A stretch of DNA of 64,000 bases from Sphagnum magellanicum (lineage: Eukaryota; Streptophyta; Sphagnopsida; Sphagnales; Sphagnaceae), in the NCBI GenBank assembly GCA_021904315.1, contig CM038919.1, positions 2,542,001-2,606,000 on the forward strand. Reading direction: 5' to 3'. Positions 3,417 to 64,000 of this stretch are shown piece by piece. The stretch's first letter is position 1, and each line of letters opens with the position of its first letter. Made by a program: the position numbers and the translations under genes. The notes beneath the pieces are model-generated. The model was not told where the DNA came from and made no database searches. It was given only the letters and a program-made list of their open reading frames with translations.

Positions 3417-3735
3417 ATGTTAACTATGGCAAACATCCCCATTGAAATGCACCTTATCAATAATGATCTAATCAAAACCTCAATTATAATAGACATTCCT
3501 ATTGGAATGGACCTAGGCCTAGTTATGGTAGATCTTGCTTTTGGAATGCACCTAGCCATGGTTATGGTAAATGTTGTTGTCAAAATGCACCTAGCCCATA
3601 ATGTTCCCATTGGAACACAATGACCTTGGCTATGGTAAACATTACTTTTTAAATGCACCTAGCCTTGGTTACGAAAATGTCATCATTGAAATGCACCTAA
3701 CACATAATGTTTTGTGTTGTAACCTTGGCTATGAT
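3417..3735. repeat. Degenerate ~37-40 bp tandem repeat, right part
   Basis: At least five degenerate units carry 'tatggtaaa...' then 'aatgcacctagcc'. It continues the array seen at 540-822 on the other side of element R. Open frames on both strands here are products of the repeat and are not genes. From 3,735 to 3,866 I see nothing. Confidence 0.5.
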
Positions 3736-14311: not shown

Positions 14312-14387
14312 CAATTACCCGGTTTGACCAGTTAGAGCCAACAGTTTTGGTTCCAGTTAAACCAGGTAACCACCCAACGCTAGTAAA
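14296..14387. mobile_element. Foldback / hAT-like MITE terminus
   Basis: The left arm, tttactagtgttgggcaatt (14,296-14,315) continuing accc.ggttt, pairs with the right arm aaacc.ggta.cc.cccaac.ctagtaaa (14,359-14,387). The arms are about 29 nt with a loop of about 34 nt. The 'agtgttgggcaa' start resembles hAT MITE termini. Repeated 'ggttc' and 'accag' motifs follow to about 14,640 and may belong to the same element. The equivalent in D2b is 55,600-55,690. Confidence 0.55.
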
Positions 14388-14399
14388 AACTGAGCCAGA

Positions 14400-17300: not shown

Positions 17301-18220
17301 GAAACGTTGGGTCATTGTGATGCATTTGATATTGTAAGAATTGAGTAAGCAAATGCCTTTAAGTCCACATCCTCCATGTTTTTGTTGCCTTCCTTAGACC
17401 CCTCTTGTGGTTGAATTGGAGTTTCAACTAGGTTTTTTTTGTTTTTCTCAAAAATATGTTCTAATTGTCTTCTAAAATTGCTAGTTACTAGCTAGTCATC
17501 TTTATCTATAGTAGATGGTCTAGGTAGATCTTTTTTCTCTCCATTGCTTGATTGTATCAAATGTGTTTAGGTTGAACTTACTAGGTTAATTCAATTTGGT
17601 AGTATAAAGTGGTCCCAAATTCTCAAATCTTTGAAGTTCATGGGACCTCTCCTACCCTTATAATAGCCCACTCACCTTACTACCTAAATACTTTTCAATG
17701 ATATGTTTCAATTACATCAAGACCCAAAGGCCTTCTTAATTCATTTGCATCATAACTCATCAATAGTTACAAGCAAAAGTCTTGAACAAGACCTTCATTG
17801 CATTCACATATATTTTGCATTGAAATGAAGGATAAAGTTTACCTCACACATGTGTCATGTGCCATGATCCGAAGCCTATCGTCATAGGGAAAACCATATT
17901 ATGTTTTAGGGACATTGTTTGACTTGCACCTTTGATATTGATTCAAATCTATTATGGGTTCAATTGTTGTTTTTCAAAATAATTCATTTTGAACTCCCAA
18001 ATGAAATATGTCTTTGTAAAGCTCAAAGGTTAAGGAATGTAGATCTAGAAAAGAATTGCATTACAACTAGAAGTTTCATCCAAACAATCACATTCTTCTA
18101 AAGGACTCATCTAGTCACCAAGTAGCCAATGTTGAGTACCATCATTAGTTTATTATTATTAAATTAATTGACTTAATTAGCTTGTATATAATCCACAAAA
18201 TCCAACCCAATGGCCTATGA
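14400..18220. other. Non-coding D2a spacer
   Basis: No gene is recognisable here. The stretch has low-complexity blocks: C-rich then A-rich runs at 15,795-15,830 and 16,105-16,142, and poly-A near 16,170. Short frames such as those at 15,315, 17,027 and 17,919 recur in D2b because the whole region is duplicated, but they carry no known domain. Confidence 0.5.
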
Positions 18221-39040: not shown

Positions 39041-40780
39041 TTTTATTAATATAATAATACTACCTATGTTAAGCTACTTTCAATTATTATATGACTATTT
39101 TTCATTAATTGAAATTATTTCACCCTACATTATTTACGGCTATTTATGGCTATTTTTAATTATTTTTTGTTATTCTAAATTATTTTTGGCTATTTTTACT
39201 TATTTCACCTTAGGCTATTTTCAGCTATTGTAAGTTTTTTAGGCTATTTTATGCTATTGTAGATTATTTCAATTTAGACTACTTGTAGTTATTATAAATT
39301 ACTTTTGGCTATTTAACTTACTTCACTTTAAACTATTTTCAGTTATTGTAGGTTCTTTTGGCTATTCTATGTTATTTTTGACTAGTGTAGATTATTTCAA
39401 TTTCAACTACTTGTAGTTATTATAAATTACTTTTGGTTATTTTAACTTATTCCACCTTAGACTATTTTCAGCTATTGTAAGTTTTTTTGTCTATTCTATG
39501 TTATTTTTGGCTATTGTAAATTATTTCAATTTAAACTACTTGTAGCTATTATAAATTACTTTTGGCTATTGAAAATTATTTCATCTTAAGTTATTTTTGT
39601 TTATTATAAATTATTTCACCTTAGATTATTTTTGGCAATTTTAAGCAATTATAATATATGGCTATTGGTTATTCTTTTATTAGTGCTATTGGTGGTTATT
39701 AATGGCTATTGGTACCTATTTTATTTGTGGCTATTAATGTTTTTTAGTGGTTATTCTATTAATAATTATTGGTGGTTATTCTATTAATGGCCATTAATAG
39801 TTATTCTATTGGTGGCTATTGGTGGTTATTCTATTAGTGGCTATTGGTGGTTATTCTATTAATGGCTACTAGTGGCTATTCTATTAATGGCTATTGGTGG
39901 CTATTCTGTTAATGGCTATCGGTGCCTATTTTATTAATGGCTACTGGTGCCTATTCTATTAATGGCTATTGGTGGTTATTCTATTAATGGCTATTAGTGG
40001 TTATTTTATTAATGTCTATTCATTATTAATTTATTAATGGCTATTGATGGCTATTCTACTAATGGCTATTAGTGGCTATTCTATTAATGGTTATTCATGA
40101 TTATTGGTGGTTATTTTATTAATGGATATCGGTGGCTATTTTATTAACGGCTATTGGTGGTTTTTTTATTAACGACTATTGGTGGTTTTTTTATTAACGG
40201 CTATTGGTGGTTATTCTATTAATGGCTATTAGTGGTTATTCTATTAACGGCTATTGGTGGTTATTCTATTAATGGCTATTGGTGGTTATTCTATTAATGG
40301 CTATTGGTGGTTATTCTATTAATGACTATTTGTGGCTATTCTATTAATGGCTATTGCTGGTTATTTTATTAATGGCTATTGGTGGTTATTCTATTAATGA
40401 CTATTTGTGGCTATTCTATTAATGGCTATTGGTGGTTATTTTATTAATGGCTATTGATGGTTATTTTATTAATGGTTATTGGTGGTTATTATATTAATGG
40501 CTATTAGTGATTATTTCATTATAAACCATTGGTGGTTATTTTATTAGTGGTTATTGATGGCTATTTTATTAATGGTTATTAATGGTTATTGTATTATAAG
40601 TTATTGTTGCTTATTATATGTTATATTACAACTATTGGTGATTATTGTATTATAAATTATTGTTCGATATTTTATGTTATAATATCATAGGCTATTGGTA
40701 GTTATTATATTGTAAGGTATTTGAAATTATTTTTCATAGGTTATTATTTTCTATTCTAAGTAATTTTTACCTTAGGTCAT
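39040..40780 (+). repeat. TATT-rich hierarchical tandem array with a 25-bp minisatellite core
   Basis: The core, about 39,745-40,610, repeats a 25-bp unit of form ggctattggtggttattctattaat some thirty times with single-base variants (ggtgg/agtgg, ttctatt/ttttatt, aatgg/aacgg). The flanking 39,040-39,740 is a looser array of 'ggctatttta' and 'ttatttcacctta' phrases. The plus strand is strongly T+G biased with almost no C except in 'ctatt'. It has no coding potential; CRISPR is excluded because units are contiguous without spacers. Confidence 0.9.
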
Positions 40781-44147: not shown

Positions 44148-44728
44148 TAGCAATCCTATGACCACGTGTGTAGTAATATATATTGATCAATTTACAACAT
44201 CTATATGAAGTAATGTAGTTTGTTTTGTTTTGTTTGTCATGTTGAAATCTCCCAAACCATGGCACTTCATGTCATGGTGTTAGTATCTTTGGAGAGCTCT
44301 CGATGAGTAAGGGTGAACTGACTTGGTTTGAAACTATTTGGAGCTATGATGTGGAAGCTATTAATTATTGAATCATTTTCTCATAGAAAACTAAATAAAT
44401 TTGAAACTAAAAACTGCATTGGAATTTGGAGGTGTTTTTGAAGTTGTTGGAAAGCCTTCAGCAAGTTAGATTTACCAGAGTTTATTTCACAATTTTCAAA
44501 GCTAATGTGTGGAAGATATTGATTTTTAAGTGGATTTTGTTATTGGAAATTTTAAAGAAATTCCAAAACTTGGGTTTGGAAGGAAAAATTAGTGGAACCC
44601 CCCAATATGTTCACATTGCTAAATTTAGAATTTTCAATTCTAAAAATGTGAAAAATAAAAAATGTGTTCACACTTGGGCCAATGGCACATGCTACATTAC
44701 ACTACAATGAAAATTGAAAAACTAAAGG
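44148..44728 (+). repeat. Segmental duplication D2, copy b, left of the gypsy insertion
   Basis: It matches 12,388-12,975 with frequent substitutions, many of them C-to-T or G-to-A, and small indels. It is interrupted at 'aactaaagg' by the 5' LTR. Confidence 0.85.
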
Positions 44729-45182
44729 TGTCATGCCTATATACATGGCCTCATATATGACGGTTAATTACAAGCATGCCAATCATGCCTTTTAGGGTTA
44801 ATGTACGCTTTTAGGGTTAATGTACATTTTTAGATTACTGTACGCTATTAATTGTTTTAGGGTTATGGCTTGTTTAGGGTTTCCGCTTGTTAATGGCTAT
44901 ATAAAAGGCCAAACTCTTCCCTTTTCTTATCAATTTTTCTAAAATTCTTTTATTAGGGAGAGTTTCCTCCATAGTCAAACTAAATTTCTAGATGCTCACG
45001 GCGACTATTACACGACCATCGTTTACATACACTACGTTTTCTTTCCTTCTTTGCAATTTAATTCTAGAAAAACTATTATCTATCACTTAATGTTGAAAGC
45101 GACAAAGTTTTCTTGGCTTTGAATTCTTGGGTTTCTTTTGTTGTTATTGTTGTTGTTGCTAGAGGGAGCTTGTGTTGTTACA
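44729..45182 (+). repeat. 5' LTR of the gypsy element
   Basis: It begins TGTCATGCC and matches 53,777-54,142 over its first 370 bp. It holds a TATA box (TATATAAAA, 44,898-44,906), equivalent to 53,945-53,953. The last ~80 bp have no partner in the 3' LTR. The end is set just before the putative primer-binding site and is approximate. Confidence 0.75.
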
Positions 45183-46032: not shown

Positions 46033-46476
46033 TGTCAACACGTCATATTTTTCAAATCGTATGTATTGCATACATACATATTCAATACCATATTCTTCAA
46101 ACCTTATCTAGTGCTTTGTATTTTTACAAAATTTTGGGGCATGGGGCAACACCATGACCTTGGATGATAAAAGCACAACTGCTCAGCCAGAGCCAAGGTA
46201 TTAACTATGAAATAACACATAATCATTTGAGCCGATTTCTTTGAGTTCACGATCTTCACGACGGTACCATCAAACTAGTACCATCAAACATCTACAATGC
46301 CATCGTCATCTAGTACAACTCTTACTAGGAATTCAGGTTGAGGTTACATTACATTAACAGTACATCAAAGTCCATTTGGAGGGGTTAATCAGTGGGGTAC
46401 TCCTATTACCGCACTAACTTTCACACCATCACCGTATATTCCGTTACAAGTTGTTACCTTTATACCCATATACACC

Positions 46477-47720
46477 ATGGAGGTTAATAGTTCCTCTGGG
46501 AGAATTGAGAAATTCAGTGGAAGGCCATGTACCATTTCTTTAAGGGAATTCAAGGCAACTTTCTCAGCTATGGATTGTGAATTGGAGCTCAAGTATGGCA
46601 CTAATTACACCGAAGCATTTGCATTCAAACAACTAGCCCATTATGTGCATTATGAGGCATTGGATGTTTACAAGCAACATTCTTCGAGAATCTTGGGCAT
46701 TATCCAGATCCTCAATCGAGCTTATGTCACAATCATCGCCATTGTCTTTCAAGTTGTAATGCAAGCTGCCATTACACATCATGGGACTGTGCTAAATAAT
46801 CCAGATCTGGTACCTATTTTAATAAACCTTTCTCTTCAACAACTCATTGCTACTACCACAAACATTCCTCCCACCATCGATGCACCAGCTTTTACTGATC
46901 TAGTGGGGGAATTCTTTCGAGTTTTTGAGTTGGAATTTCTGGTTAAAAGTTTTGAAAAAATTTTACAACTCGTCACCTTCTCTCAACAAAAGGATGAAAC
47001 CCTTAAGATGTTATACAGGAGGTTTTTCAAGCTTAAAGAGGATACTTAGAGCATCACAGATTTGGAAGTTGCCCATCAATATTTTCATTCGTTGGAAGGT
47101 ACCTTGACCCTCCATGCATAGGTTTTGCAACAGGTTTTTGTAGAATTTAGAAATTCATACACTTTGCTGGATGTGTACAACATTTTTGAAGAGCTAAAAT
47201 TGGATCATGCACATTATGAGACCAGTACTATGAGGCCTCCATCACGTTCAAGGCCTTAGCCTCCACCAATTGCGTCAACCAGATCATCACATTCTTTTTC
47301 AAGGGCTAAAATTGTGCATTCGGTTGCACCCATCCTACCTTTTTGCAACTACTGTGGCAATCTTGCCCACAAAACTAGTGAGTGCAACATTCCTTCCGAG
47401 GATCTCTTTTGTGATTATTGTGGAAAAAAATGACATTAAAAAGTTATTTGTTTTGCCAAGTTCTTAGGATGGAAGTAACTTTAATTATCACGACAAAATT
47501 TACCAGCATCTTCCATTGCCTTTCGACCAAAAGCCAAGGCACCTCAACCTTCCACTCAGGCTTTCCCCATTAAAGGTAATTCAAGTAAAAATGCTAAGAA
47601 GAAGGAACACAATGCTAACAAGAAGGAGGTGCTTCAAGCCCATGTTGCTCAAATTTAAACTCTACAAAATGAACTCGAACCATTGAGGGCCCAACATACT
47701 AATATTAAAGGCAAATTTTC
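46477..47720 (+). pseudogene. gag region of the gypsy element
   Basis: The first frame, 46,477-47,049 (190 codons), has a capsid-like helical region ending FELEFLVKSFEKILQLVTF and DETLKMLYRRFFKLKEDT, as in plant gypsy gag. It stops at a TAG and resumes with ITDLEVAHQYFHSLEGT. A CX2CX4HX4C zinc knuckle follows (CNYCGNLAHKTSEC, 47,345-47,386). A second, decayed knuckle (CDYCGKK, stop, H, stop, then C) lies at 47,410-47,455. A Lys/Gln-rich stretch near 47,580-47,700 could form a coiled coil. Gag packages the RNA; the paired knuckles would bind nucleic acid. Confidence 0.75.
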
Positions 47721-48492
47721 CCAACCAGTTAGTCACGCCCAACCTATACATGGTTCAGGATCATAGGAGGGACCTCCTAGGTCGTTCTATGGCCTCTCAC
47801 ACCATGCCATGGTTGGGGAGTATGTTTTTTCCAGTGCACACAATTATAATTTCACACCAGAATTTGCCACTTCTTTTTGCCCTTCCTACTTCACAACATA
47901 AGAGGCTAGTGTGGCACCCAGAGTTTCTGCCACTAGGCAAGTAATTCAGACTGATGGACTCACATTTGATTCAAGTCCTATTACAAGGGCTAAAGGAACT
48001 TGAGCAATCATGCCATAATCTTTTCGTCCTCTCAACACGGAAGAAGAATGCACCTTGTTGGCGAGGGGGGAGGAGACTATTACACCACAAGCTGCTAGGG
48101 CATAAATTCTTGTGTCTTAGGAATGCATGTACATTAGGAAAACATACGATTTTCCACTGATCAGCTTATGGAGTGCCAATTTCAAATGCATGAAATGGCG
48201 CAAAAGCTTATGAGTACATCATTGTTTAGTTTTCAAGATTTAAAGCTAAGCACCAAGGACATAATTGCAGTACTAAATGATACCTTGAAAACTACATCAA
48301 GTCCTCTACCAATCCCTGATCCACATGCTACAAGGGTCCCATCCAACACCTTGGAGAGACACTCGATTAACTCACGTGTTATAGACGGCGTTCATGATCT
48401 AGTCACTAGTTCTAGCATGGCTAAACTAGTGGGCTTTCCGACCTTTAATTCTACATTCACATATATCAGATGGAGCTAATAACACCTCACTT

Positions 48493-49301
48493 TTGGATTT
48501 ATTACTCAACAAAGGCGTTGTGGATAGCTATTCTTTCCACAAAATCTCTCATTCATTTCTGAAGGTGATGCCTAGTGAGAGAACTTCCATCACCATTGAA
48601 GTTACCATTGTCGACAATACTAAATCAACAATCCAGGTGGGAAGACATACACCCAGAGTGATACTTCTTGATACAGGTGCCCAACAAGTGATTCTTGGAG
48701 TTCAATTTGCCAAGAAAATGAGCATGTTTGACTCCAAACTACAAAAATCTATGTGGCAAATTTGCACCACTAGTGGGAGCGTAAAGGAGGTACTTGGGAA
48801 AGCTTGGATTTGATTGCACTTAACTTCAATGGAGGTACAGATCAGGACCTTTGCCTACAAGTCAGATGTTTAATCATTAATGCCACTAGTTATGATGTGT
48901 TCATTGGGCAAGAGGCCCTATTTCCACCAGGTTTCACAATTGACAATTGTTTTGAACATGCGTATTACCGAGTGGATTGCGAGATTGATGGCCCCCACTT
49001 GGGATACATACCCTTTGATTTACATGGGAACCATAATCCTATGGCTCACCATTATATGCTCAAAGAAGCACACACCATTTCCTACATCCAACAAATTAGC
49101 CACGAGTGGATAGAGGGATATGAAGAGGAGATAGCTTACGCCCAAGCTACTAAGAGCTTGAAAGTGGTTCCTACAAACATTCAACACAAACCAAAGGTTT
49201 TACAGAAGTTCAAAGCAGGCCACAAGCCCTTGATCAAAACTTTGTTTATTTTTGAGAACATGGAGAACCATGGCGAATCGATTAAGTCAGTATTTCGTTA
49301 G
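48493..49301 (+). pseudogene. Retropepsin-type protease region of the gypsy element
   Basis: The frame 48,493-48,813 contains VILLDTGAQQVILGVQFAKK, with the DTGA active-site motif of retroviral-type aspartic proteases. A frameshift near 48,805 moves the reading to 48,804-49,301, which has SYDVFIGQEALFPPGF, the usual C-terminal flap and 'IG' part of the fold, then an acidic linker toward the methyltransferase. The protease would cut the polyprotein apart. Confidence 0.75.
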
Positions 49302-49328
49302 TTAATCACCTAGAAACCGCCTAAGGAA

Positions 49329-50290
49329 GGGATTACATTATTAGAGCTTTTTGGTGGTATTCATACAGGTCTTGAAGCCCTACTATAGTTAAGGATGGTG
49401 GTTTGGAGGTATTTGTACATAGACATTGATCCTATTGCAAGGCAAGTGGTGGCATTGAGAATGATGGAGTTCATAGCCAGATTTCCATAATAGTTTGCAA
49501 CCACTGCATGGAAGGCTAGTTTAAATTTCTTTCCCTTTGACATACAACTAATTCAAAAGAAACATATGGAATTACTTGGCCCCATGGACCTCATCATTTC
49601 AAGTTGGGAATGTTAAGGATTTTTAGCAGCTAGATTTCAAGAAGGTTTGAATGACACAAGATCTTATCTCTACACGAACATGGTATAATTGATCACATGG
49701 GCTCAATTCATTTCTCCTACACTTGGTTATGTAATTGAGAACACCTCTTCTTAGCTTGACGAGAGGGAGAAAGTCCAGGATCACTACATGCTAATCAAAC
49801 ACTACTTTCAAGAACCACTCATATTCGATGCGGCACAATGCGGTTCTTATGTGCACTGGCTACGCAATTGGCGGACCAACCTTGCACCACTCTTACTTCT
49901 ACATTGGCTTTGAGATACACCATCAGAGACCCCAACCTGTAAGTTTTTCACATATTGGATGATCAGAGCTCCCACCAACCAGTTACAAGGCAAGAGAATC
50001 CTCCTTGGTTTCTTGCGAACACAATAGGAAAACCAAGAGGTGCTTGGCCCACCTTTGTTTCCTTCCTAGGAGCACACGCCTTTCAAGGAGATGGACCAAG
50101 CTTAGTGTATCATCATGCTTCAGTGATTTGGGATGAATCAAGCCCAGAAGAAAGAAAAAGGGTTATGGGGTTCCAAATTTACATTACTAGTCACACTAAG
50201 GTGATTAGATTGGAATGTAACGCCCTACTAGGGAGAGGCATGGACCTGAACTCCCTTACATGGTTATTGGTAACTTGTGTACTCTTTTAA
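49329..50290 (+). pseudogene. DNMT3/DRM-type cytosine-5 DNA methyltransferase domain inside gypsy pol
   Basis: One frame runs from 49,329 to about 49,903, then shifts by +1 to 50,290, about 320 codons in all. Motifs in order: I, LLELFGGIHTGLEALL (SAM binding); II-like, RYLYIDIDPIARQV; IV, GPMDLIISSWEC with the Cys codon at 49,611-49,613; then GL.DTRS.L as after motif IV in DNMT3/DRM; VI, GYVIENT with Glu at 49,737; VIII-like, FDAAQCGSYVHWLRNW then TNLAP; IX/X, ERKRVMGF and LLGRGMDLNSLTWLL. This is the unpermuted order of DNMT3. Plant DRM has it circularly permuted. In motif IV the usual Pro-Cys is Glu-Cys. Stops at 49,386, 49,488, 49,491, 49,614, 49,686, 49,752 and 49,911 kill this copy. In a live element it could methylate cytosines in host or element DNA (inference). 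Confidence 0.85.
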
Positions 50291-50589
50291 ATGTACATAA
50301 CACCCGCACTGATTCAATTAGCTTGCAATTATGGTGAGGCGACTACATGGCACCTCGACGAAATACATTTGACTATCTTCAACACTCTAGACTTCACTTT
50401 TAATGTTGGGGGGAGGAGGTACCATGTAATTTGATTCAAGTTGTTTCTAATACACTTGGAGGTACATCAATTTCTAGAGAAACAATTACAACCTTCTATG
50501 AATCTTCGTAGTCGGATAGTGGATAACCCAATACACCATGTTCTTCAAACACACTTTCCAACTCCATTCCATGTGTTTCCAACTACCTT

Positions 50590-51560
50590 TTTGTTATGGG
50601 GAACCAACTCACCAAGAAGGAGAAAGACCAAGTCACAGACTTGTTAATTAAGTATGAAAATGTGTTTGCATTCTCAATGAAAGACTTAGGTAGGTGTAAG
50701 ATGACGCAGTTCTTTATAGACTTTACAAATGAGACACCCATTTATCGAAGGAGGCATAGGTTGAACAAACATGAGTGGGAACTGGTAGATGAAAGATGTA
50801 AATAGTTCCTTGAAGTTGGTTTCATTCAACCATCAAGTTTTGATTTCGTAGCCACTATAGTAATGTTAACAAAGAAGGATTCAATTAGATTATGGACTGC
50901 GAAAAGGATGTGCAAGGATTATAAACCTTTGAACCTAGTTACACCTCAGGACAAGTACCCCATGCCCATCCTTAAATAATTATTTAATAGTATTGGAGAT
51001 TCAAACATCTTCACAATTATGGATCTAAGGCAAGGCTTCAACCAAATTGTGCTCACTGCGAAGGATCGTTAAAAAACGACATTCCATGAAACAACAAGTT
51101 GTGGGAATGGCTTGTGATGCTTTTTGGATTAAAGAATGCACCTGTCTTCTTTCATTGAATCATGGACCAAGTTCTCGAAGGGGTAGATTTCCTTAAATGC
51201 TACATGGATGACGTCCTAGTGCATAGAAATGGACTCCTATAACACTTGGTTCATCTTGAGGAGTTATTCAAGAGGCTCCGCGAAGTCAATATGAAGATCC
51301 ATCCTAAAAAATGTGAGTTTGATGTCACCTTAATAGTCTACCTTGGACACAAAATTTTGCCAAATGGTATTATGGCTCATTGGGCCAAAATAGTAGCCAT
51401 TTTGGAGATGCCCAATCCTATTAATGTTCACACTTTGAATAGTTTTATCAGACAATGTAATTACTACAGGATTTATGTCCAAGGCTTTAGTACTATTGCT
51501 CATCCTCTTTATGCATTATTAAAGAAGGATGTTGTTTGGACATGGAGTGAAGAAGCTTAG
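50590..51560 (+). pseudogene. Reverse transcriptase domain of the gypsy element
   Basis: It starts with a pre-RT linker (LTKKEKDQVTDLLIKYENVF) and RHRLNKHEWELV. Then come FTIMDLRQGFNQIVL (about 51,012) and CYMDDVLVH, where YMDD (51,201-51,212) is the catalytic motif. The thumb side has LVHLEELFKRLREVNMKIHP and CEFDV...YLGH. Stops occur near 50,803, 50,978, 51,070 and 51,157. The domain copies element RNA into DNA. Confidence 0.88.
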
Positions 51561-51579
51561 GAAGCTTTCGACACATTCA

Positions 51580-52034
51580 AAGAAAAGCTTTCAATGTTCC
51601 CCATTCTGAGAAAACTTGATTTCAACAAGGTTTTCATTCTACACACTAACTAGAGTGCTCTTGGTATTGGTGTTATTCTTGGCCAATTTGATTAGGAAAG
51701 CAAGGAATATGTTATTGCCTATGCATCCCGAAGCAACAACAAGGCTGAGAGCAACTATTCTTCATACAAAGGGGAGTGTTTTGCTGGTGTATGGGTTGTC
51801 ATACATTTCAAGCCCTTTCTTTATGGCACCAAGTTCACTTTGTATACCGACCACCAGCCTATCAAATGGTTGATGACCAACGGCAAACTTATTAGTAAGT
51901 TAGCTCGTTGGGCACTTATACTTCACGAATATGAATTCAAGGTTATTCACCGACTTGGTATTACACATCAAAACGCGAATACCATGTCATGGAGACCCTT
52001 CATTACCTCTGAAGATTTTTCAGAAGCTAAGTAA
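51580..52034 (+). pseudogene. RNase H domain of the gypsy element
   Basis: It shows GIGVILGQ, YVIAYASRSNNKAESNYSS, YKGECFAGVWVV and LYTDHQPIKWLM, the standard gypsy RNase H blocks. The first catalytic Asp (usual TDAS block) reads HTN followed by a stop at about 51,652, so it is lost. The Glu in GECFA and the Asp in YTDHQ remain. It removes RNA from RNA-DNA hybrids. Confidence 0.82.
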
Positions 52035-52129
52035 GACTTTGACCAGATTCTAACAATACATGTATCTTATGCATGTAGTTATCTTGCACTACTGCAATGT
52101 AACCTGGTTGAGCATCCCATTGTGGATAT

Positions 52130-53400
52130 ATGGGAGGATTTGGACACTCTGAGGTTTCTTCAGCATGGGGAATACCTTCCCCAAATTACATCAAGTCACC
52201 GGGATCGCATACAACAACGGTCCAAACACTACTCATGGAGGGACAATCACCTTGTCCGATGCTTACCACAAGGTGACATAGTGGTTCCTCCACCACATGA
52301 ACGGCCTGGTCTTATTCAGAAGGTACACTCGAAGCTTAGACACTTTGGAATTAAGCATACTTATAACCTTCTTGCTCTTCATTACCATTGGGGAGGTATG
52401 TATGTTGTAGTTTGAAACATCATTACAAGGTGTGAACAATGTGATAGAGTGAAAACTTCTTTTTCCTTTTGACAGTTCACGTTTTCTCCACTCCCTATTT
52501 AGGGCATGTTTTATCACTGGTCATGTGATTTAGCTGGAGAATTACCACAAACCTCTAGGGGTAATGTCTACATCATGATTATGATTGAACATTTTTCAAA
52601 GTGGGTCGAACTTATTGCGTTGCCGAACAAGTCATCACATAGCACAAGCTAAGTTTTCTTACAACAGGTCTTAAGTAGGTTTGGGGTTTTGTGTTGAGTG
52701 CCTTACAGATCAAAGATCAGAATTTAGAGGAGAATTCCAAGACCTACTTAACCATGCTCTCATTGACCATTGTCGAACTTCAAGGGATCATCCCCAAGCT
52801 AATGGCCTTGTAGAGAGGATGGTTTAGACATGTAAGAAGAGACTTCGGAAGATTGTCTCACTAGGAACAAAGAGGATTAGGACTTGGCCCTACCTTACAT
52901 CACCATGGGTTACATGATGTCCAAACATGTCTCTTTGTTTCATTTTTCTCCTTACTTTCTACTTTTTAGGAGACATCCCATTCCACCCTTTTCCATTGCT
53001 ACTCAAATGGACCAGGTTGTGGACTTGGACTCCCCAAACACTTGGGCTAGGGTCATCGCAAAAAGGGCTACTCTATTCAGGAAAGTTATGCCCATGGCCA
53101 TGGAAAACTTGTCCATTGTGTAACATCGAGACACCTTACAATATGCACACACACGAGGTGGCAATTACAAACCTAAGGTGAGACAATTTGATGTTGGTGA
53201 CTTTGTGTATCTCTAGCGGCAATCTAATGATACTCTAGACACTTATTCCAGTCGCATTATCTTGAGGATTAAGGTGATTAGGCCTTCAGGTGTGTTAGAG
53301 TTACAAGGAGTTGACGGACGCACAATTTGGGATCATTCCAAAAATTGTGCGCCCTGCCGCCTGCTAAACTTGGATCCTACCATCATCACGTCAACTTGGA
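52130..53400 (+). pseudogene. Integrase domain of the gypsy element
   Basis: An HHCC zinc-binding region has HSKLRHFG (about 52,328) and CEQCDRV (about 52,433). The core has catalytic Asp in CDLAGEL (52,527-52,529), Asp in LTDQRSEF (52,708-52,710) and Glu in GLVERM (52,813-52,815). The last two are 35 codons apart, near the DD35E spacing. The C-terminal part has VGDFVYL, PSGVLELQGVDGRTI and CAPCRLLNLDP. No chromodomain is seen. Stops at several places make it inactive. Confidence 0.82.
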
Positions 53401-53420
53401 TTCCTCCACTTGATTATCCA

Positions 53421-53546
53421 TGTCAGGTATGTTAAATGACAGACGATGTTAATCAGATGTTGCTTTGTAATGGTGGATACCATATTTTTTGCTTCAAGCC
53501 GAAGCTCACTCAAGTTTTCGTCGGCATTTGGTACTGTTCATCATGT
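53421..53546 (+). pseudogene. PHD-finger-like Cys/His cluster after the integrase
   Basis: In frame with the integrase tail: Cys 53,421, Cys 53,430, Cys 53,466, His 53,481, Cys 53,490, Cys 53,535 and Cys 53,544. The aromatic 'WYC..C' just before the last pair is typical of PHD fingers. Seven of the eight C4HC3 ligands are present. The fourth Cys is missing, probably through a 6-9 base deletion between 53,468 and 53,481. A TAA follows the second Cys. PHD fingers bind histone H3 tails, so a live element could be guided to chromatin of a given state (inference). Confidence 0.65.
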
Positions 53547-53616
53547 TCTCTTGTAGCACCTTGATTTCTATTCGGACCATGCGATGCTTTTCCTAGCTTA
53601 AGTTTGGCAGGGGATA

Positions 53617-53776
53617 CATGAAAATTTCATCTCAGCCTCCTCTTGTGCATTGTATATATATGTGTGTGCATATCTTTTGGGTTGATTAGTTTATGCTTTT
53701 GACTGGTTTTAATCTTTTTGTTTAGTAGATTTTGTTATGGATTTACACCCTTACGACACCATACATCACAACAGTT
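53617..53776 (+). repeat. Segment X, copy 1 (upstream of 3' LTR)
   Basis: It matches 54,147-54,308 in direct orientation: 'atttcatctca.cctcctcttg', 'gcattgtatatatatgtg', 'atggatttacacccttacga'. It would normally hold the polypurine tract just before the 3' LTR. Confidence 0.8.
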
Positions 53777-54142
53777 GTCATGCCCGTATGCATGGCCTCA
53801 TACATGACGGTTAGTTACGAGCATGCCAATCATGCTTTTTAGGGTTAATGTAGGCTCTTAGGGTGAATGTACGTTCTTAAGTTACTGTACACTATTAGGT
53901 GTTTTAAGGTTATGGCTTATTTAAGGTTTCAACTTGTTGACGGTTATATAAAAGGCCAAGTTCTTCCCTTCTTTTGTCAATTTTTCTAGAATTCTTTTGT
54001 GAAGAAAAGTTTCCTCCATAGTCAAATGAGAATTCTAGATACTCACAGGGCTATTACATGATCACCGTTTACTTACATTACGTTTTCTTTCCTTGTAATT
54101 TAATTTTAAAAAAACTACTCTTTATCACTTAATGTTAAAAGT
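53777..54142 (+). repeat. 3' LTR of the gypsy element (truncated)
   Basis: It begins TGTCATGCC and matches the first 370 bp of the 5' LTR with many differences, by eye roughly one in eight bases. The last ~80 bp are replaced by a second copy of the upstream segment X. Confidence 0.8.
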
Positions 54143-54146
54143 TCAT

Positions 54147-54308
54147 ACATGAGAATTTCATCTCAACCTCCTCTTGTGCATTGTATATATATGTGCATGC
54201 ATCTTTTTTGACTTGATTAATTTTTGCCTTTGATTAGTTTTAGTCTTTTTGTTCAATAGAGTTTGCTATGGATTTACACCCTTACGAGATCGTATGTCAC
54301 GACACTAC
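54147..54308 (+). repeat. Segment X, copy 2 (downstream of 3' LTR)
   Basis: Direct copy of 53,617-53,776, placed after the truncated 3' LTR. It is followed by 'acgtcatgataacg', which may be the first bases of another LTR, and then by D2 flank. Confidence 0.75.
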
Positions 54309-54604
54309 ACGTCATGATAACGAATTGTTATGCAAACTACAAATGAACTAATGTTTGCCTCTACTTTGATGGAAACCAGAAAAAACAAATAGGAGAAAGG
54401 TAAAACATGAAGGACTTTAAAAGTCATAGCTCAATTGCCAATCGAAGCTACATGCTCTCACTCAATTACCACCAGCCAGTGATTTGTTTTAGGTGGTGAG
54501 TTTTTGCTCTTTTGTGAAACTTTTTGGAGTACAACTTTGAAAATTGAAAATTCTGGTATGTTTTTCGATGTAAGTTGTATTTTTTCAGCAAAAAAATTCC
54601 ACTT

Positions 54605-55620
54605 TTAGTTAATTAAAAAAGTTGAAAAAAAAACCACTAGCCTACCACCAGCTACATTTTTTAATGTCCTTTGTGAAATACCAAACAAGGAAGTAACCAA
54701 GCAGAGTTGAGAATAAACCTCACAGCTAAGTTCAAATAGGCAACTCCAAATCTCCAAAAGTATCCCTTGTTTTTTTGCTTCTCCTTGTGGCTTCAGAATT
54801 CAAAGGCTTTTTAGGAGGGTCCTTTTTTGGGGGTCTATAATGCAAGGAAGCTTGCAAAATATTGGCTATTGGCACTTGCACTAACAGTTTGGTCTAGTAC
54901 ATTGGGAGATCAAGCCACAGCAAACCAGCACCCACCAGTGCACCATCCATTGGATGCCTGTTATAACTCAGTTGTGGATGAACCTCAACTGAGTTAAAAT
55001 TTGATTTCACCTTGGTAATCAATTCTGTAGGAAAGAGGTCTAAGATATAGGTGTAGATAGGTAGGAAAATAGGTAACTATTAAGTAAGTAGATGGTTTAT
55101 ACATAGGTAAGGGCTGTTTTAGTACCTACTTACTAACAACCTGCTTGTGAGTTGTCGATAGGTAGGTAGGAAAAAAAGTAACTGAGATAACCACCATGGT
55201 TAGTTAAGGAACTGGAACCCAACAGAAAACTGTTTCCTGACCACTTACCATTCATCCTTCATGGTGCACTGCTGGGTGCTGGTTCACTGTGGCTGATCAG
55301 TCCTGAATAGAGAGCGGTACGTAAAGGTTGACACCACACAACCCATGGGGACCCTTATTCTGGTAAAGCCCATAGCATCGGGCTTTACCGTGCATAAAGA
55401 GACTAGCTAGGCTGCCTGTGGCAATGATAAGACCAGGAAGTGGGGAAAGTGGGCTTTAAACTTTTGTAAAGCCTGTGGAGAGGTAGGCTCCTTTTTGCAA
55501 GTAGGTTTTAAGAAAACTGTAACTTCAGCTTAGGAAACAAACAAACAAACAAAATTCTCCATGTTGCAATGTGATGTCTAAAAATACGGGAGGTCTTTAC
55601 CAGTGTTGGGCAATTACCTG
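54605..55620 (+). repeat. 1 kb repeat C
   Basis: Third copy of the A/B repeat, the D2b equivalent of B. It lacks B's internal duplication near 14,000-14,090. Confidence 0.8.
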
Positions 55621-55690
55621 GTTTGACCAGTTAGAGCCAACAGTTTTGGTTCCAGTTAAACCAGGTAACCACCCAACACTAGTAAAAACT
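55600..55690. mobile_element. Foldback / hAT-like MITE terminus, D2b copy
   Basis: Same inverted arms as 14,296-14,387: 'cagtgttgggcaattacctggttt' on the left and 'aaaccaggtaaccacccaacactag' on the right. Here the arms pair better than in D2a (cccaacact against agtgttggg). Confidence 0.55.
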
Positions 55691-55699
55691 GAGCCAGAA

Positions 55700-58600
55700 C
55701 TTGGTTTGATTTTTGGAACCAGGTTCAAAACAACCAGATCTGGTTCTAGTTCACTGTAACCAAACCCAGACCAGGTTCTAGCACCAGAACCATAATTTTT
55801 GAAAATAATTTTTTTGGGGAGAGAAAAATAGTTTTGAGTGAAATCAAGGGTCAAATGATGGTGAAATCAAGGGTCAAATTTCTTAGTGTGTTTGAAGGGC
55901 ACCTTTGTATGTGAATATTCTTCCTTGGAAAGAGGAGGTATATTAAGCCTACTATTTAGAAGTAAGTGGGATCCCTCCCGCTGCTATCGCCTCATGCTTT
56001 ACATATGTTTATTAGGCTTATGATAAACTTGGCCATGTGCTTCTAAGTGTCGGGTGAATCAGCATCCACATTGGTACCATGGCAATGGCAAAACCACCAA
56101 TGTTGGACTATCTTTAGAATTTTCAAAGAACCGTCTGTTTCAGTTCCTTAAAAAATTTAGAATGAAAACCATTGGTTCCATTTTCTTTTTAAAAATTCAG
56201 AATCAAAAGCACCATTGGTTCTAATTGTTTCAAAAACTAAAAAGAATCAATGATTTTCATGAAAGAACCTGCAAAGAACCAGTGGATCTCTAGTAGCCAG
56301 TTCCTTCTTGACTTTTAATTTGTTTTAATCCACAGTTATATATCCAATTAGGTTTTTGGAATTTTTAGGAACTAATGAGTAAGTGAACATATATAGGCTA
56401 CCTGGGTTGATAATTGATGGGTATCTATCTATCTGTCCCTCATTCTAAGAACCACCCAAAACTGGTAAAAACTCCAAAATCTATTTAAATTGCCTCCAAA
56501 TATTCCAAATATCCCATTCTTAGACTAAATCAGGGTTTCCGAGTTCAAATCTAACTTCTTTTGGGCTTACTATGGCCACTAAGAGGCCTCACTCAAAAAG
56601 GTTAAGATACCAGTGTGGGTTTGCATGTTCACCCTAGCCATGTTTTAGGGTTCTGCTGGTTCAGATGCATATCATGTTCAGCCAAAACAAAATCAAAATG
56701 TGTTGCACTGCCTTCTTCTCATAGTTGCCTTGTTTTGCACCTTGCATGGTTCTGCATGTTTCTGCACAACTTTTTCATGTTTTTGCAAGAACATCATTTG
56801 ATATGTTTTGCATGTTTTGCTGTGCCAAGCTAAATTTGAACCCAACAAACCTCTTTTTATAAGACAGTACCAACTACCAACCAACAACATGTTTTCAAAA
56901 AATGAAAGAGGGCACTCTTTTTAGGGTTTATATTTATAGATGCATAGGGTCAAAGTAGTTAAACTCTATGAGACAAACAAACAAAGCTTTAATGGGTTTA
57001 GGGTTTAGGGTCAATGAGTTTTTGAGCCAGAAAATGCTAGATAAAGGGTGTTTGATGTCTTCCTTCCTCATACTAGGCTCCTTAATTTGGGAATGAATCC
57101 AACCGCCCCCTCTCCCCGCGCCCCACCCCCCTTTGGGCTTTATTGTATACATAAATAATCACAAGTTTCACTTTGTCCATAGCAATGCAAAAAAAAATGT
57201 AAGAAAAGCCCCCAAAATGTGGATTTCTTTTGTCAACTCTCCATACTTGTAGCATTTTGGCTGGTGGATTCCACCTCACTTTGGCTATTTAGCTAGACAC
57301 AGCATTTTGGGTGGCATTCCTCTTGTGGAATTGTCTGGGTCTACCTCTCAGTGAAGTTATGGGGTAGCTTCTTTTTCCTCCACATGTTCTTAAAGAAACC
57401 TCTCCCACCCCCCACCAATACCCCCACCCCCCAAAAAAAAATCCCCCACTTATATTTGAAACTTTCTGCATTGAAAAAAAAAAATCTTTTAAACCAGAGG
57501 TCTTATGAAGCCCTTTATTTCACCATATCACCCATGCAGAATCTGCCTGGGCCCGCCCCATTCAAGTACCCAAGCAGATTCTGCATATTAAGAGGTCAGT
57601 AGAGGACCACCCAGGGTGGATTCCAGGGCCAACCCTAGTGCACTCATGGGGTGAGATGACAAAGGCCTTGTTAGGGCCTGGAATTCTCCTGAATAACCCA
57701 TTCTCTAGTCCATAACTAGTTTGGGTGTCCTATTCACACTCTTTAGGATTTTCCTAGGTGAGACAGCCAGCCATTTGCTGGTTCCACTTTTGGTGCAGTC
57801 GGTTCCATGTGTAATGTGAATGAATGGTGAACAATGTGCTTGATATGTGAACACACTTGATCTAGGTGTTGTGGTTTTTGTTCTGGTCTATTGTACTATA
57901 GCTGGAGCTAAGTAGTGATGAACTATAGTTAGGTGTGGCACCCCCCTATCACCATCCAGCCCCAAGGCCATTTGCTACCTCTACTTCCCCTCCCCCATTT
58001 AGATTCATCCAAATCATTCCACATATTTCCAAAATATATTTAAAACATTGTTATGAAAACATATTAAAAAAATTTGCAACATTAGTACAACTTTTAACAC
58101 TAAAGCATGAAAAACCAAGTATAGGTTACACATTGTGAATGTATTTGGGTTGCTCCATTCGAATGACTTGGAGGTTGTCATTTTGGGGTTCAATAACATC
58201 CAACTAGATGTCAAACACAATTGTAGTAGTGATTTTGGGTTCAATAAACATCATGTTGTTGGTTTGCATCTATTATTGATTTTTGGAGATCCTCCCTTTC
58301 CTAGTGGTTTCTAGGTCCTAGGGTCTGTTGACTAGTCATGCCACTTGTCATATTCTCCAAATAATGATAGTGGGTAGAAACATATGTTGCTTCAACAATC
58401 CTTTGTATCCCCTAGGTCCTTACCTAAGGAAGATTTTTGGCCAAATAGATGTGCTTGTCAATGTTTTATTGTCTATGTAAATATGAGATTTTTGAACACA
58501 AAATGGTTCCAATCTACTTCCATGTCTTTGCCCTAACTATTAGTTGTTGTAATGTTTTCCCCTCCGTGTTCTTAGTATCCTAGTAAGTTCAATAGTTATT

Positions 58601-59520
58601 GAAACGTTGGGTCATTGTGATGCATTTGATATTGTAAGAATTGAGTAAGCAAATGCCTTTAAGTCCACATCCTCCATGTTTTTGTTGCCTTCCTTAGACC
58701 CCTCTTGTGGTTGAATTGGAGTTTCAACTAGGTTTTTTTTGTTTTTCTCAAAAATATGTTCTAATTGTCTTCTAAAATTGCTAGTTACTAGCTAGTCATC
58801 TTTATCTATAGTAGATGGTCTAAGTAGATCTTTTTTCTCTCCATTGCTTGATTGTATCAAATGTGTTTAGGTTGAACTTACTAGGTTAATTCAATTTGGT
58901 AGTATAAAGTGGTCCCAAATTCTCAAATCTTTGAAGTTCATGGGACCTCTCCTACCCTTATAATAGCCCACTCACCTTACTACCTAAATACTTTTCAATG
59001 ATATGTTTCAATTACATCAAGACCCAAAGGCCTTCTTAATTCATTTGCATCATAATTCATCAATAGTTACAAGCAAAAGTCTTGAACAAGACCTTCATTG
59101 CATTCACATATATTTTGCATTGAAATGAAGGATAAAGTTTACCTCACACATGTGTCATGTGCCATGATCCGAAGCCTATCGTCATAGGGAAAACCATATT
59201 ATGTTTTAGGGACATTGTTTGACTTGCACCTTTGATATTGATTCAAATCTATTATGGGTTCAATTGTTGTTTTTCAAAATAATTCATTTTGAACTCCCAA
59301 ATGAAATATGTCTTTGTAAAGCTCAAAGGTTAAGGAATGTAGATCTAGAAAAAAATTGCATTACAACTAGAAGTTTCATCCAAACAATCACATTCTTCTA
59401 AAGGACTCATCTAGTCACCAAGTAGCCAATGTTGAGTAACATCATTAGTTTATTATTATTAAATTAATTGATTTAATTAGCTTGTATATAATCCACAAAA
59501 TCCAACCCAATGGCCTATGA
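55700..59520. other. Non-coding D2b spacer
   Basis: Copy of 14,400-18,220. It has C-rich and A-rich tracts near 57,105-57,130 and 57,400-57,445. No gene is recognisable. Confidence 0.5.
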
Positions 59521-62500
59521 TGATGAAAGGGTTAAACAGTGACACAATCACAATTCACCATCATGACATTGAAGGTGAACAAGGTGTTTGTTTTGTCGAT
59601 GAATGATAGTCTTTTTCATGGAAAAAAGACCTTTGACGATCCCAACATTGGATGGTACATGTTTGAGATGCAAAATGCCATGAGGAAGTTAAATTTGTAT
59701 TCAAAATTCTAGAAGATGGAAATGTATAAGGGATCTTCCATGACCAATTTCATTAAAGAGATCAAGGAAATCAAGACCAACTTGGTTGTTGTGGGAGAAA
59801 TTTTGATTGATAATATATTGGTCCATGCATGGTTTAATGTCCTACCTTCAAGTTATGAATTTTGATCCTATCAATCGCACCTAATGATATTTTGCCACCA
59901 TTTGACAAACTTGTTGAAAAGTTCTTATACAAAAAATAACATGAGAGTAATTAAACATGTTGTCTAGATGAAGAAAAACTTTTGATTTGAGGAATTAAGA
60001 AATAGAACATTAGTTCCAAGTCAGAGTGTGACCAATCTTAGGAACAACACATTATTCAAATAATAAGAAGTTACAACGTGGCTTATGTTATGTTTGTGAC
60101 AATGAAGGTCATTTTGCACAAAAATTTCGATAGCCAAAAGGAAAAGGGAGCTTAAGCTTTAAAAAGAAATCAATGAGTAATGTAAATGACAATAGAAAAG
60201 ATTGCATTATTGACTATAAAGGATTGTACATGTATATTCAATTGCAAAGGTCTTTGAAATGTCCTTAGTTACCATGAAAGAAATAATAATCAAACTAATA
60301 TCTTGATTCAAATGTTATTAACCATGTCATAAATGATAGAAGAAAAGTAGGTTCATTCATTGAGATAAGCAACAAGGCAAAATTTGAAATGATAAAAAGA
60401 AAAGTAAGTTCATTCATTGAGGTTGACAACAAGGCCAAAGCCAAAGTTATTGTTGGAGAGGACCATATTATAAAAGACAAGGACCTTGCATCGTTGCATC
60501 TATTGGACAAAGAAACAAAGACCATTGTTCTTCAAATGCTAAATTTAGTTAAGAATATATTGCCATTGGAACAATTTTTAGATGAAAGCTACATTTTGGT
60601 GTTCACAAGAAAAAAATGTTGGATCTTGTCAAAAAAAAAGTATAGGGAAAATTGTAGGGAATGCAACTTGCACAAAAGGAAATAGTCTTTACATATTAGA
60701 CATGCAAAGGGGAAAAAATTCTACAAAATTCATGTGTCTTAGTAAATGTTACAGAAAAAAAAGGTGATTCATGCATGTGGCACCAAAATTTAAGCACCTA
60801 AATTATCGTACCTTACATGAATATTCTAATGAATGAACTTTAGGACTTCCAAAATTAACTTGATATTGTGAAGTTTGCAACATTTATTTAATAGTAAAAC
60901 AAGCTTGAAGGGGTTCAATTCTTTAAATTGTAACAAAATACTGTCTCAACTTCAACCTTTTACGTATTCCCTTATCTAATCCTATTTTATTATACACAAT
61001 ACATAATATGGATGATATTGATGGAATCTAGAATTGTGGTGATATAAAATATTATATTGTTAAATATTTGACACCTTTTAGTTCAACAATATTGGAAAAT
61101 AAAAATATAGGAGAAAAAGAACTTCATCAAGGACTAGGTCATTTTTGTCTTGAATGGTACACATTAAAGGATTTTCACCCAAAGGAGTTTTCCCAAGCAA
61201 GAAAATTTAACATTAAAAAAAATGTTTTGAAATTTAGTTGCATAGATGTTTGCAATCCATTGCCAATGAAATCGCTCAATAATTATTGGTACTTTTTGGC
61301 ATTTATTTATGATTTTTTGAAAATAAACTTAGGTCTATGTCAATAAATCAAAATTTTGAAACATTTAACAAATTTAAACAGTTTGGAGAAGAATTATTTG
61401 AATATGAGGCAAGAAAAAGAATCAAAACATTCCATGCTAATTGTGAAGGTAAAATTTTTTTTCAAGAAAATTTAATCTATACTTTGGAAGAAATGTAATT
61501 GAATGTCAATTAACACATACTAGATCATTAGGTCAAAATGGTGTTTCTAAGTGAAAGAATTTCTCAATTTAAAAAAAGGATCATAATATGTGTTTAAAGA
61601 GTGGTGTGCCAAATTATTTATCACATGAAGCAAGGAACATGCTAGGACCTATTCATTAAATTGATGTCCAACGAGGAAAAAAATAGCATTTCTCTTTAAG
61701 AAAGATTTCAATTGATATCTCAACTAAATGTGAATCATCTTTAAAAATTAAGTAATTTAGTTTATATGCATGTATTGTATATTAGAGTTTAAATTAATCA
61801 AAATAATATTAATAAGGTATGCACTACAACACATTTTGGGTTTTGCAATTTCCATTTGCAATTGAATATTAATTGTAAAAGACATATGCAAGTAACAACT
61901 TATGAGTTGTAAAACCCACGTTATTTCACCCACTTAGTTGCAAAGGACAATGATGTGGCATCTAGTTGCAAAGTCTAATCGTATTATGAACTAGCCTTTT
62001 TTATGTTGTGATAATATTGAAATTTCATGTCATAAATTTCCAAAGTGTGATGTGTAAAATGTAAAATGTAAAATGATGTGGATGTCATGTCAACCTAATC
62101 ATTTTACTTGACTACTTGTTATAAATTATGCCTTCCTATAAAAGTGACACATGTCAAAAAATTTATCCACACATGTTCAATTACGATTCACACATGACCA
62201 AGAATGAACTAGGTGTAAAATCCATAAGTGTCAATATTTTATTGCATGTTAAAGGCTAATAAGTATGTAATTGTTTATATCAATCCAACACACCAAAACA
62301 TGGCATATATGATTACACATCGAAACCTAAGCTAATTAAGTTAACTAAGTTAATCTATGTTACTTAAGTTAGGTAGGCTAAGCCACCTAGTTTAAGTTGC
62401 CTAGGTTTTAAATATGGGCTAAGTAGGAGCCTAGGTGGCATAACCTACACACCTTAGCCAAGATTAACCATGTAAATTACTTAACATAATCTAGGGTAGA

Positions 62501-64000
62501 TTAGTTGCAAGAACAAGGATTTGAACTTTTCACCTCCACATTGAAAGACAAAGTTTTTACCATTGCACCAACTTTTTATGTAACATAAAAGGTAATCACA
62601 TTTTAATAAACAATCTTTTTTACCTACCTAAATGACCTACTCAATTTAATTACCCAAACTATCTAAGCATTTATTTAAGGGTTATTTAAATTAAACTATT
62701 TAAGGATTGTTTAGGTTACCAAAAGGCTTATCTAAGGGCTACTTAGCTTATGTTTTCATTTATAATGTTAATTATGCCATCTATGAGTTTATCATTAAAT
62801 AACTAGAGACTTATAACTCCAATGTTCATTTTTTAGTTGCATGTATTGTGTTTTATAACACCCATATCTCAAGGTTCTAGTTGATATTTTTTCATTAAGA
62901 AATGCAAACATTCACTATTAGTTATGCAATGGGGACTAGTTGTTGTTGCCATGTGTCATGATTATATTGGTCACAACAATGCATATTTGGGTTTTTCAAT
63001 TTCTTTTGTGATGCCATGTGTTAATATATTATTTGATAACTAGGGACCTATAATTGCAATGTTCACCCAATGTTCATTTAATAATCACATGTATTGTGTT
63101 CTATTGCACTCAAGTGTCAAGTTTCTATTTGATATTTTTTTCATTTAGAGATGCAAACATTCATTATTAATTATGCAATGGGAACTAATTGTTGTTATCA
63201 CTTGTCTTTACCAATAAGTTGTCATATTGACTATAGTCACAAAACTATGATGCCATGTGACATGTTGATATCCTTTGCCTTTACTTCATGATTTATGTCA
63301 TTAGATAATTATAGATGTAGTCAAAGAAAATAACAATCATTTTTGAGTCCAATAAAAAAGGACACAATGTGTTTTAATGATTGATAATAAAACAAAAACT
63401 TATAGATTTATCATTCAATTAAACAACAAATAGAAATAAGTAGGTCCATATAATTGTGGATGAATCAATTCAAGGCCTTAAACCTATAATCAAAACATTA
63501 GTAATTGATGATAGTCTCTACTTCCCAACCTTTCTTGAGTTTGTGGACTCATTGGAAAACATGATTAGTTCATTGAATCTTCGGATTCAAGAGTTCGAAA
63601 TAGTGCTTGAAGAGTCAATTGGAAAATTTCCAATAATCAAAATTTACCTCTTGACAACATGGAAGAAATTGCTATTGTAAGAGCTTTGGTCACATGTAAG
63701 ATACATCATAGAAGACAATGAGATCCTATGGATCAAGAGCCAATATCCACAGGCAATCATCAATACCCAACAAAAGATAGGAAACCATTAACAAGATTGT
63801 AAGATTATGTGACATTTATGGTAGTGGCAATTAATGAACCTTCTTGCTTTGCTAGGAAGCAAATGCTTGTGAAGGTTTGAGAGATGCTATGGTTAAAGAT
63901 ATTGAGTCATTTCAAAGAAATTCAATTTGGGAGCTTGCCAAATTGTCAATTTTGGAAAGAAACCAGTAACAACCAAGTGGGATTTCAAGGACAAGGTGGG
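59520..64000 (+). pseudogene. Ty1/copia polyprotein relic, D2b copy (cut by window end)
   Basis: Near-identical to 18,220-22,694, with the same stops, the same knuckle with a lost Cys, and R copy 3 at the same site. In this copy a one-base difference keeps the integrase stretch IDVCNPLPMKSLNNYWYF open within the frame 61,068-61,346; in D2a that stretch is out of frame. It runs off the right edge in the reverse transcriptase region. Confidence 0.82.
61822..63379 (+). mobile_element. CACTA-like element R, copy 3
   Basis: D2b counterpart of 20,522-22,072, with the same CACTACAACACA start, the same end and the same host site. A short 'aaaatgtaaaatgtaaaatg' stretch near 62,056 has one more unit than copy 2. 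Confidence 0.55.

Follow-up and report, generated by a model that had tools for sequence, protein, structure and literature searches.

Can a retrotransposon of a land plant carry, in its own polyprotein, an enzyme of the type with which transposons are silenced by their hosts? The question is raised by a 64,000-nucleotide stretch of Sphagnum magellanicum (assembly GCA_021904315.1, contig CM038919.1, positions 2,542,001 to 2,606,000; hereafter the window). A Ty3/Gypsy element had been predicted there, from the letters alone, to encode a DNMT3-like cytosine methyltransferase between its protease and reverse transcriptase (RT). The element is a decayed Gypsy-type copy: gag-pol with protease, DNMT3-type methyltransferase, RT, RNase H, DDE integrase and PHD finger, lying between split direct repeats. 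Most likely it represents, in a land plant, the kind published as KnitGypsy-Dnmt3 of Klebsormidium nitens (PMC5890265). The seed-plant setting of the original prediction falls away, the host being a moss.

The methyltransferase domain and its element

Methyltransferase motifs I (ELFGGIHTGLEAL, 49344–49382), IV (SSWEC, 49599–49613), VI (VIENT, 49731–49745) and VIII (AQCGSYVHWLRNWRTNL, 49833–49883) are read in a single frame from 49329, which is also the frame of the protease-linker open reading frame at 48774–49301. Motifs IX (SSPEERKRVMGF, 50138–50173) and X (LLGRGMDLNSLTWLL, 50225–50269) lie in a different frame. A run of all motifs in the protease-linker frame, as first proposed, is thus seen for I to VIII but not for IX and X. 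The domain extends past the proposed interval, 49329–50290, ending at about 50329, and its frame changes near 49880–49904.

Taken alone, the window domain scores weakly. PF00145 was matched at E=0.0063 and 0.015, both short of the curated cut-off, and the best PDB match was DNMT3A (E=0.042). The piece holding only motifs IX–X matched nothing in PDB or Pfam. Residues 1–275 of the related protein P0001 (linker and methyltransferase), however, aligned with the window at 72% identity (tblastn, E=1e-123). A protein search with the window region (stops as X) recovered 14 relatives among 1319 candidates (E 3e-85 to 1e-14), 10 of them with a precomputed PF00145 domain. The P0001 alignment and these relatives rule out chance similarity. 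P0003 joins a gag-like region, protease and methyltransferase in one frame, and P0004 joins methyltransferase, RT and RNase H likewise; the domain is therefore real and fused. NCBIfam returned matches below cut-off only (dcm, IS481). That the window region is a DNMT3-type methyltransferase domain is as good as certain.

The predicted Gypsy-type order, with the methyltransferase between protease and RT, was found both in the window and in the genomic copy L028, a single open frame of 2,379 codons. Pfam placed a protease at residues 728–824 of L028, PF00145 at 1025–1112, RVT at 1487–1641, then RNase H and an H2C2 zinc finger, an integrase core at 2027–2120 (rve, E=2.8e-11) and a PHD finger at 2330–2374 (PF00628, E=5e-11). 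No tyrosine recombinase family was among these matches. The window copy is dead, since stops and frame changes run throughout its polyprotein (47 stops in 2351 aligned codons, eight of them in the aligned methyltransferase row). The PHD finger (53409–53561), the split repeats and an E-C catalytic motif go beyond what had been predicted. Parts of the window element are as follows.

44728–45099, + strand: left terminal repeat B1, starting TGTCATGCC; 83% identical to B2
46450–48609, + strand: gag-like region with 13 stops and two frame changes (tblastn with the L028 open frame)
48610–48998, + strand: aspartic protease with one frame change (tblastn with the L028 protease; PF13975 E=0.0062 in the window copy)
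49317–50329, + strand: DNMT3-type C5-cytosine methyltransferase domain, broken by stops and one frame change at about 49880–49904 (motifs, profile, tblastn, relatives, folds of P0001 and P0002)
49599–49613, + strand: catalytic motif IV, W-E-C, with E replacing the usual P and a stop directly after it in the window copy (tblastn and comparison of copies)
50845–51533, + strand: RT with one frame change and stops (tblastn with L028; RVT_1 E=0.00046 for 51243–51560)
51534–51983, + strand: RNase H with 3 stops (tblastn with L028; PF17917 E=1.4e-24 for 51696–52034)
52269–53183, + strand: integrase, H2C2 zinc finger and DDE core, with 12 stops (tblastn with L028; PF17921 E=2e-7 for 52035–52415)
53409–53561, + strand: PHD finger at the polyprotein C-terminus with 1 stop and 3 residues missing (tblastn with the L028 PHD finger, E=5e-20)
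53597–53773, + strand: repeat A1, 82% identical to 54128–54304
53776–54141, + strand: repeat B2, pair of B1
54128–54319, + strand: repeat A2, right element end; its aligned start lies 14 bases inside B2 and its final 15 bases were placed by likeness to other copies (repeat alignment)

CCHC-type knuckles were recognised by eye in the gag-like region of P0003, where Pfam made no call. The window also contains a direct duplication, with 12392–12975 resembling 44148–44728 (90% identical) and 12979–22693 resembling 54327–64000 (96%). The first copy is unbroken at 12975/12979 and looks like an empty site, the element exactly dividing the second. The flanks are unequal in identity, and a clear target duplication is no longer visible. 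Dense tandem arrays of 25-base units and longer multiples occupy 39245–40596.

Family members, relatives and trees

A PF00145 profile run over the S. magellanicum genome (438,994,042 bases, 31 contigs) gave 124 matches, host genes included; among the latter are three DRM loci and two rows of one MET1 gene. Twenty regions were fetched, selected non-randomly as having long open frames or as a possible host gene, and yielded 19 element copies and one MET1; apart from short loci, 103 of the 124 rows lie outside this sample. Copies were found through the methyltransferase domain, and those without it are therefore unsampled. Less decayed members with the domain at the same place, as anticipated, do exist: all 19 copies carry it in the polyprotein. 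Family 1 comprises 17 of them, with methyltransferases 86–90% identical to P0001 and 77–81% identical to the window copy. Besides the fully open L028, its members have 1–11 stops across the aligned frame, and L031 is without part of that frame. The methyltransferases of L043 and L044 are 39% identical to P0001 (about 42% to family 1) and define family 2. This second Gypsy-methyltransferase family of the same genome, to which L020, L022 and L023 also belong, has a W-P-C-Q motif and long open frames. The annotated S. magellanicum gene model P0013 (CY35_15G039600) is element-derived; it has lost the middle of the methyltransferase and keeps a PHD finger and, by eye, part of an integrase. Best PDB matches of the PHD finger were KMT2D, KMT2C and KDM5D. 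No separate host DNMT3 was recognised among the 17 of 36 matches to mouse DNMT3C that were read (the three best being DRM loci and 14 being fetched element copies).

Relatives extend beyond this genome. A search with the P0003 methyltransferase region gave 42 proteins from 2112 candidates, P0003 itself included, and 25 have a precomputed PHD domain. A profile search gave 1004 proteins at E ≤0.001 of 8000 scored; K. nitens P0099, at least 14 named Closterium proteins and Sphagnum compactum P0153 are among the 120 best matches listed. Two domain orders were seen. Type A (protease-methyltransferase-RT, later integrase-PHD) occurs in Sphagnum, in L016, in Calypogeia to the extent of the fragment and in Closterium P0052 up to RNase H. 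Type B (RT-RNase H-methyltransferase-integrase-PHD) was placed by Pfam in P0016, P0019, P0035, P0041 and P0043. Some of the type-B polyproteins P0016, P0019, P0028, P0035, P0041 and P0043 have a further C-terminal stretch beyond the PHD finger.

Profile and fold place the element methyltransferase closest to DNMT3, in line with the DNMT3-like label first given to it. In the methyltransferase tree the 23 retroelement-type rows cluster together (bootstrap 97), separate from DNMT3A/C, from two DRMs of Sphagnum and from 13 rows of phage or bacterial enzymes. Retroelement rows and DNMT3 stand together, apart from DRM and the phage and bacterial rows, with support of 82. When DRM, P0099 and P0006 were left out, a further tree gave the same split (95.4/92). 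The trees contain no plant host DNMT3, which limits any claim of a single origin. Bacterial origin was rejected, the 13 phage and bacterial rows falling outside the retroelement group in both trees; this row set excludes L001, L008, L009 and L017, which had no usable start, and L019, by choice. Two of the sequences carry bacterial labels, L016 and P0056. L016 is plainly a retroelement and P0056 groups beside it. L016 (9285 bases, from a contig labelled as a Synechococcales metagenome-assembled genome) forms a closed element of this type whose ends overlap by 127 bases. Its single in-frame stop, at 3489–3491 between protease-methyltransferase and RT-PHD, might set the ratio of methyltransferase to RT.

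Type-B rows form a single group in the methyltransferase tree (93, 9 rows) and again in the RT tree (98, 17 rows). The methyltransferase would therefore, most simply, have travelled with the RT and switched place once in this sample. P0099, a 356-residue K. nitens model that lacks RT and the motif IV stretch, pairs with P0046 (100) within the retroelement group (97). Nothing here ties P0099 to KnitGypsy; P0046 has a protease tail upstream (by eye).

Repeats, ends, age and selection

Seven family-1 copies (L031, L033, L034, L038, L041, L042 and L045) have the repeat order B1-coding-A1-B2-A2, with A of about 172–185 bases and B of about 309–333 bases. The window repeats follow the same order, as does family-2 L044 up to the locus edge, where A2 is cut off. 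Ordinary long terminal repeats (LTRs) at both ends were not seen in copies showing both repeat pairs. The layout would match an LTR provirus whose first U3 had moved to the far end. Elements start with TGTCATG and end with CA(C/T)(G/A)ACA. With ends placed by these terminal motifs, a perfect 4-bp target duplication was found in 7/7 copies tested; none was recognisable around the old window copy. The A1|B2 junction, GACAGCTGTC, was exact in 7 of 19 copies scanned, one base off in three and absent from the scanned stretch in nine. It is exact in L016 and in copies of both Sphagnum families, and decayed in the window.

B-repeat identity was 96.8–99.0% in eight family-1 copies and 83% in the window, indicating that the eight moved recently relative to the window copy. 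This range is given without L039 (non-standard repeat), L035 (a 101-base match of 75%) and family-2 L044 (98.6%). Changes between paired repeats were mainly transitions in 7 of 8 copies, the window included, where 67 transitions (11 of them at CG) stood against 23 transversions; L038 was exceptional, with 10 against 13. Ratios of non-synonymous to synonymous change (NG86 dN/dS) among six near-intact copies were 0.18 for the methyltransferase, 0.21 for RT and 0.57 for the linker between them. Across all pairs of the 17 family-1 copies these were 0.28, 0.27 and 0.49. From these similar values, the methyltransferase is constrained as strictly as RT.

The catalytic Cys, motif VI E-N, the motif VIII arginines and motifs IX–X are mostly conserved in element methyltransferases. 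Motif IV varies. It reads E-C in 17/17 family-1 copies, the window, six Closterium proteins read and 4 of 9 type-B tree rows, and P-C in family 2 (W-P-C), L016 and the other 5 type-B rows. The proline of motif IV matters for catalysis. Because W-E-C is found in family 1 and the window, and W-P-C in family 2, we call the Sphagnum domain DNMT3-type rather than canonical DNMT3. The predicted fold of P0002, itself an E-C protein, matches DNMT3A on DNA across the whole domain; it was used in place of the P0001 model (574 residues), which is poor outside the core. DRM structures were not among the best 50 fold matches listed for P0002, from which no exclusion follows.

Possible function and comparison with known systems

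Our best overall explanation, which we hold somewhat more probable than its negation, is an element of the KnitGypsy-Dnmt3 kind whose methyltransferase would methylate its own DNA copy, with a circular intermediate and PHD-guided insertion. The enzyme would be made as part of Gag-Pol, freed by the protease and packaged together with RT. It would then methylate cytosines in the double-stranded DNA copy, before or at integration; for this choice of substrate by itself the chances seem slightly less than even. The DNA copy would go through a circle with the palindrome GACAGCTGTC at its junction, and the integrase would insert it with 4-bp duplications. The PHD finger would direct integration by reading the histone H3 tail. 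A copy methylated before arrival might be mistaken for host heterochromatin or be protected on its way. Architecture, constraint, recent movement, 4-bp duplications and split repeats are observed; we infer catalysis, own-DNA substrate, circle and PHD guidance.

Several points weigh against this explanation. Catalysis in the family is a prediction, and Glu for Pro in motif IV may weaken or alter it. It is the repeat layout by itself that suggests the circle. Eleven of 19 loci do not show the two repeat pairs together: only the A pair is seen in L029 and only the B pair in L046, and nine have no standard pair, four of these (L028, L032, L035 and L039) showing other weak or non-standard matches. 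With pairs incomplete elsewhere, the B-coding-A-B-A layout rests on the seven copies, L044 to its locus edge and the window. Seven family-1 loci showed no extra CpG loss of the sort that self-methylation would leave as a footprint, a comparison that age confounds. Over a fixed stretch of these loci CpG observed/expected was 0.49–0.61, higher than in the rest of the window (0.26), so a simple footprint is unsupported. Values were 0.45 for the window element, 0.38 for the L034 coding part and 0.27 for one family-2 locus. The earlier suggestion that the element could hide or bookmark itself likewise gains no support from the family-1 CpG counts.

The lack of CpG depletion in family 1 would also suit an enzyme acting in trans on host chromatin, changing host methylation or silencing instead of marking its own copy. 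The 124 PF00145 matches, many in open frames, could supply such an enzyme, and a PHD finger resembling those of KMT2D, KMT2C and KDM5D sits in the same polyprotein. Trans action is nevertheless unlikely in our judgement: in both families and in relatives the methyltransferase is part of the same gag-pol frame as RT and integrase, and work in the particle or pre-integration complex therefore fits better. We rate as rather improbable that the domain no longer methylates DNA in this lineage and serves instead as a nucleic-acid-binding part or in RNA methylation. The recurrent E-C motif speaks for such a loss, as does SymbioLINE-Dnmt, which left yeast DNA unmethylated when tested (PMC5890265). Against it stand the mostly conserved remaining motifs, P-C in family 2, L016 and part of type B, selection equal in strength to that on RT, and the modelled DNMT3A-like fold of an E-C protein.

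Two further alternatives concern origin. Sphagnum and Klebsormidium elements might have acquired their methyltransferases independently, as de Mendoza et al. (2018) considered the K. nitens case an independent acquisition when compared with Symbiodinium (PMC5890265). Plant host DNMT3, missing from our trees, could fall inside the clade, and P0099 is not tied to KnitGypsy. Separate capture per lineage is doubtful all the same, given one group of 23 retroelement rows that includes P0099 and a DIRS-like repeat layout common to KnitGypsy and the Sphagnum element (PMC5890265). A chance resemblance, or the single insertion of a methyltransferase from the host or a bacterium, has next to nothing in its favour beyond the weak profile scores of the window copy. 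It was rejected, because the polyproteins of 19/19 fetched copies (found by that domain) and of many database relatives carry the domain. The element very probably belongs to the Gypsy-Dnmt3 kind, an assessment that takes into account that P0099 is not tied to KnitGypsy.

Methyltransferase-bearing retrotransposons were reported earlier from dinoflagellates and one charophyte alga (PMC5890265). A 2025 paper refers to these cases of 2018 and writes Copia for the element called Gypsy there. Besides PMC5890265, the literature consulted comprises PMC6453930 and PMC12344493. KnitGypsy-Dnmt3 combines Gypsy-type domains with DIRS-like repeats (A-coding-B-A-B). It has in common with the Sphagnum element a pol of Gypsy type with RT, RNase H and DDE integrase, a Dnmt3 of unpermuted motif order within Pol (both by L028 on the Sphagnum side), a DIRS-type repeat arrangement (seven family-1 copies, window, L044) and purifying selection on the methyltransferase (PMC5890265). 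It differs from the present element in host and in the E-C motif IV of family 1. The PHD finger may be a further difference: the 2018 main text does not mention one and a legend calls the domains typical of Gypsy, although KnitGypsy may have it (PMC5890265). SymbioDIRS-Dnmt3 of Symbiodinium likewise has Dnmt3 in the Pol of a split-repeat element and two coexisting domain orders, as with types A and B here, but it is DIRS-type with a tyrosine recombinase and is treated as an unrelated acquisition (PMC5890265).

Among host enzymes, DNMT3A/3B/3C share the whole-domain fold, motif order, motif VIII A-H-R-x-R and motif X L-L-G-R. Identity in the fold alignment is about 23%, motif IV is S-P-C-N rather than W-E-C-Q-G, and the DNMT3 companions ADD and PWWP were not among the Pfam matches of L028. 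Plant DRM has a DNMT3-related catalytic core in permuted order, including at the three loci of this genome (C15:12757090, C6:13160109 and C17:13029985), whereas the element is unpermuted, as originally predicted.

The DIRS replication model runs through a circle. Unlike DIRS elements, the Sphagnum element has a DDE integrase, 4-bp duplications in 7/7 and no recombinase family in L028. A broader idea is possible, if speculative: that split-repeat retroelements copying via circular DNA keep DNA methyltransferases whatever their integration enzyme, tyrosine recombinase in DIRS and DDE integrase in this clade. Here the circle would be opened by the integrase at GACAGCTGTC and marked by the DNMT3-type domain, and the PHD finger would pick the chromatin target; such a polyprotein, both writing and reading chromatin, would date from before land plants.

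Titles and abstract openings of the non-subscription literature searched named no DNMT3-bearing retrotransposon of Sphagnum or another bryophyte. The kind itself is already published as KnitGypsy-Dnmt3 (PMC5890265); as far as our searches go, the moss and liverwort members, PHD finger, E-C motif, type B and shared junction palindrome are apparently new. From open younger copies here and relatives in liverwort and charophyte algae, some plant mobile DNA appears long to have carried its own DNA-marking enzyme. Open, recently moved copies in a sequenced moss, together with liverwort and Closterium relatives, now place the kind in land plants, and one organism allows testing of what a transposon gains from such an enzyme. 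With the Sphagnum element, the question also takes in a PHD finger and a repeat layout suggestive of a circle.
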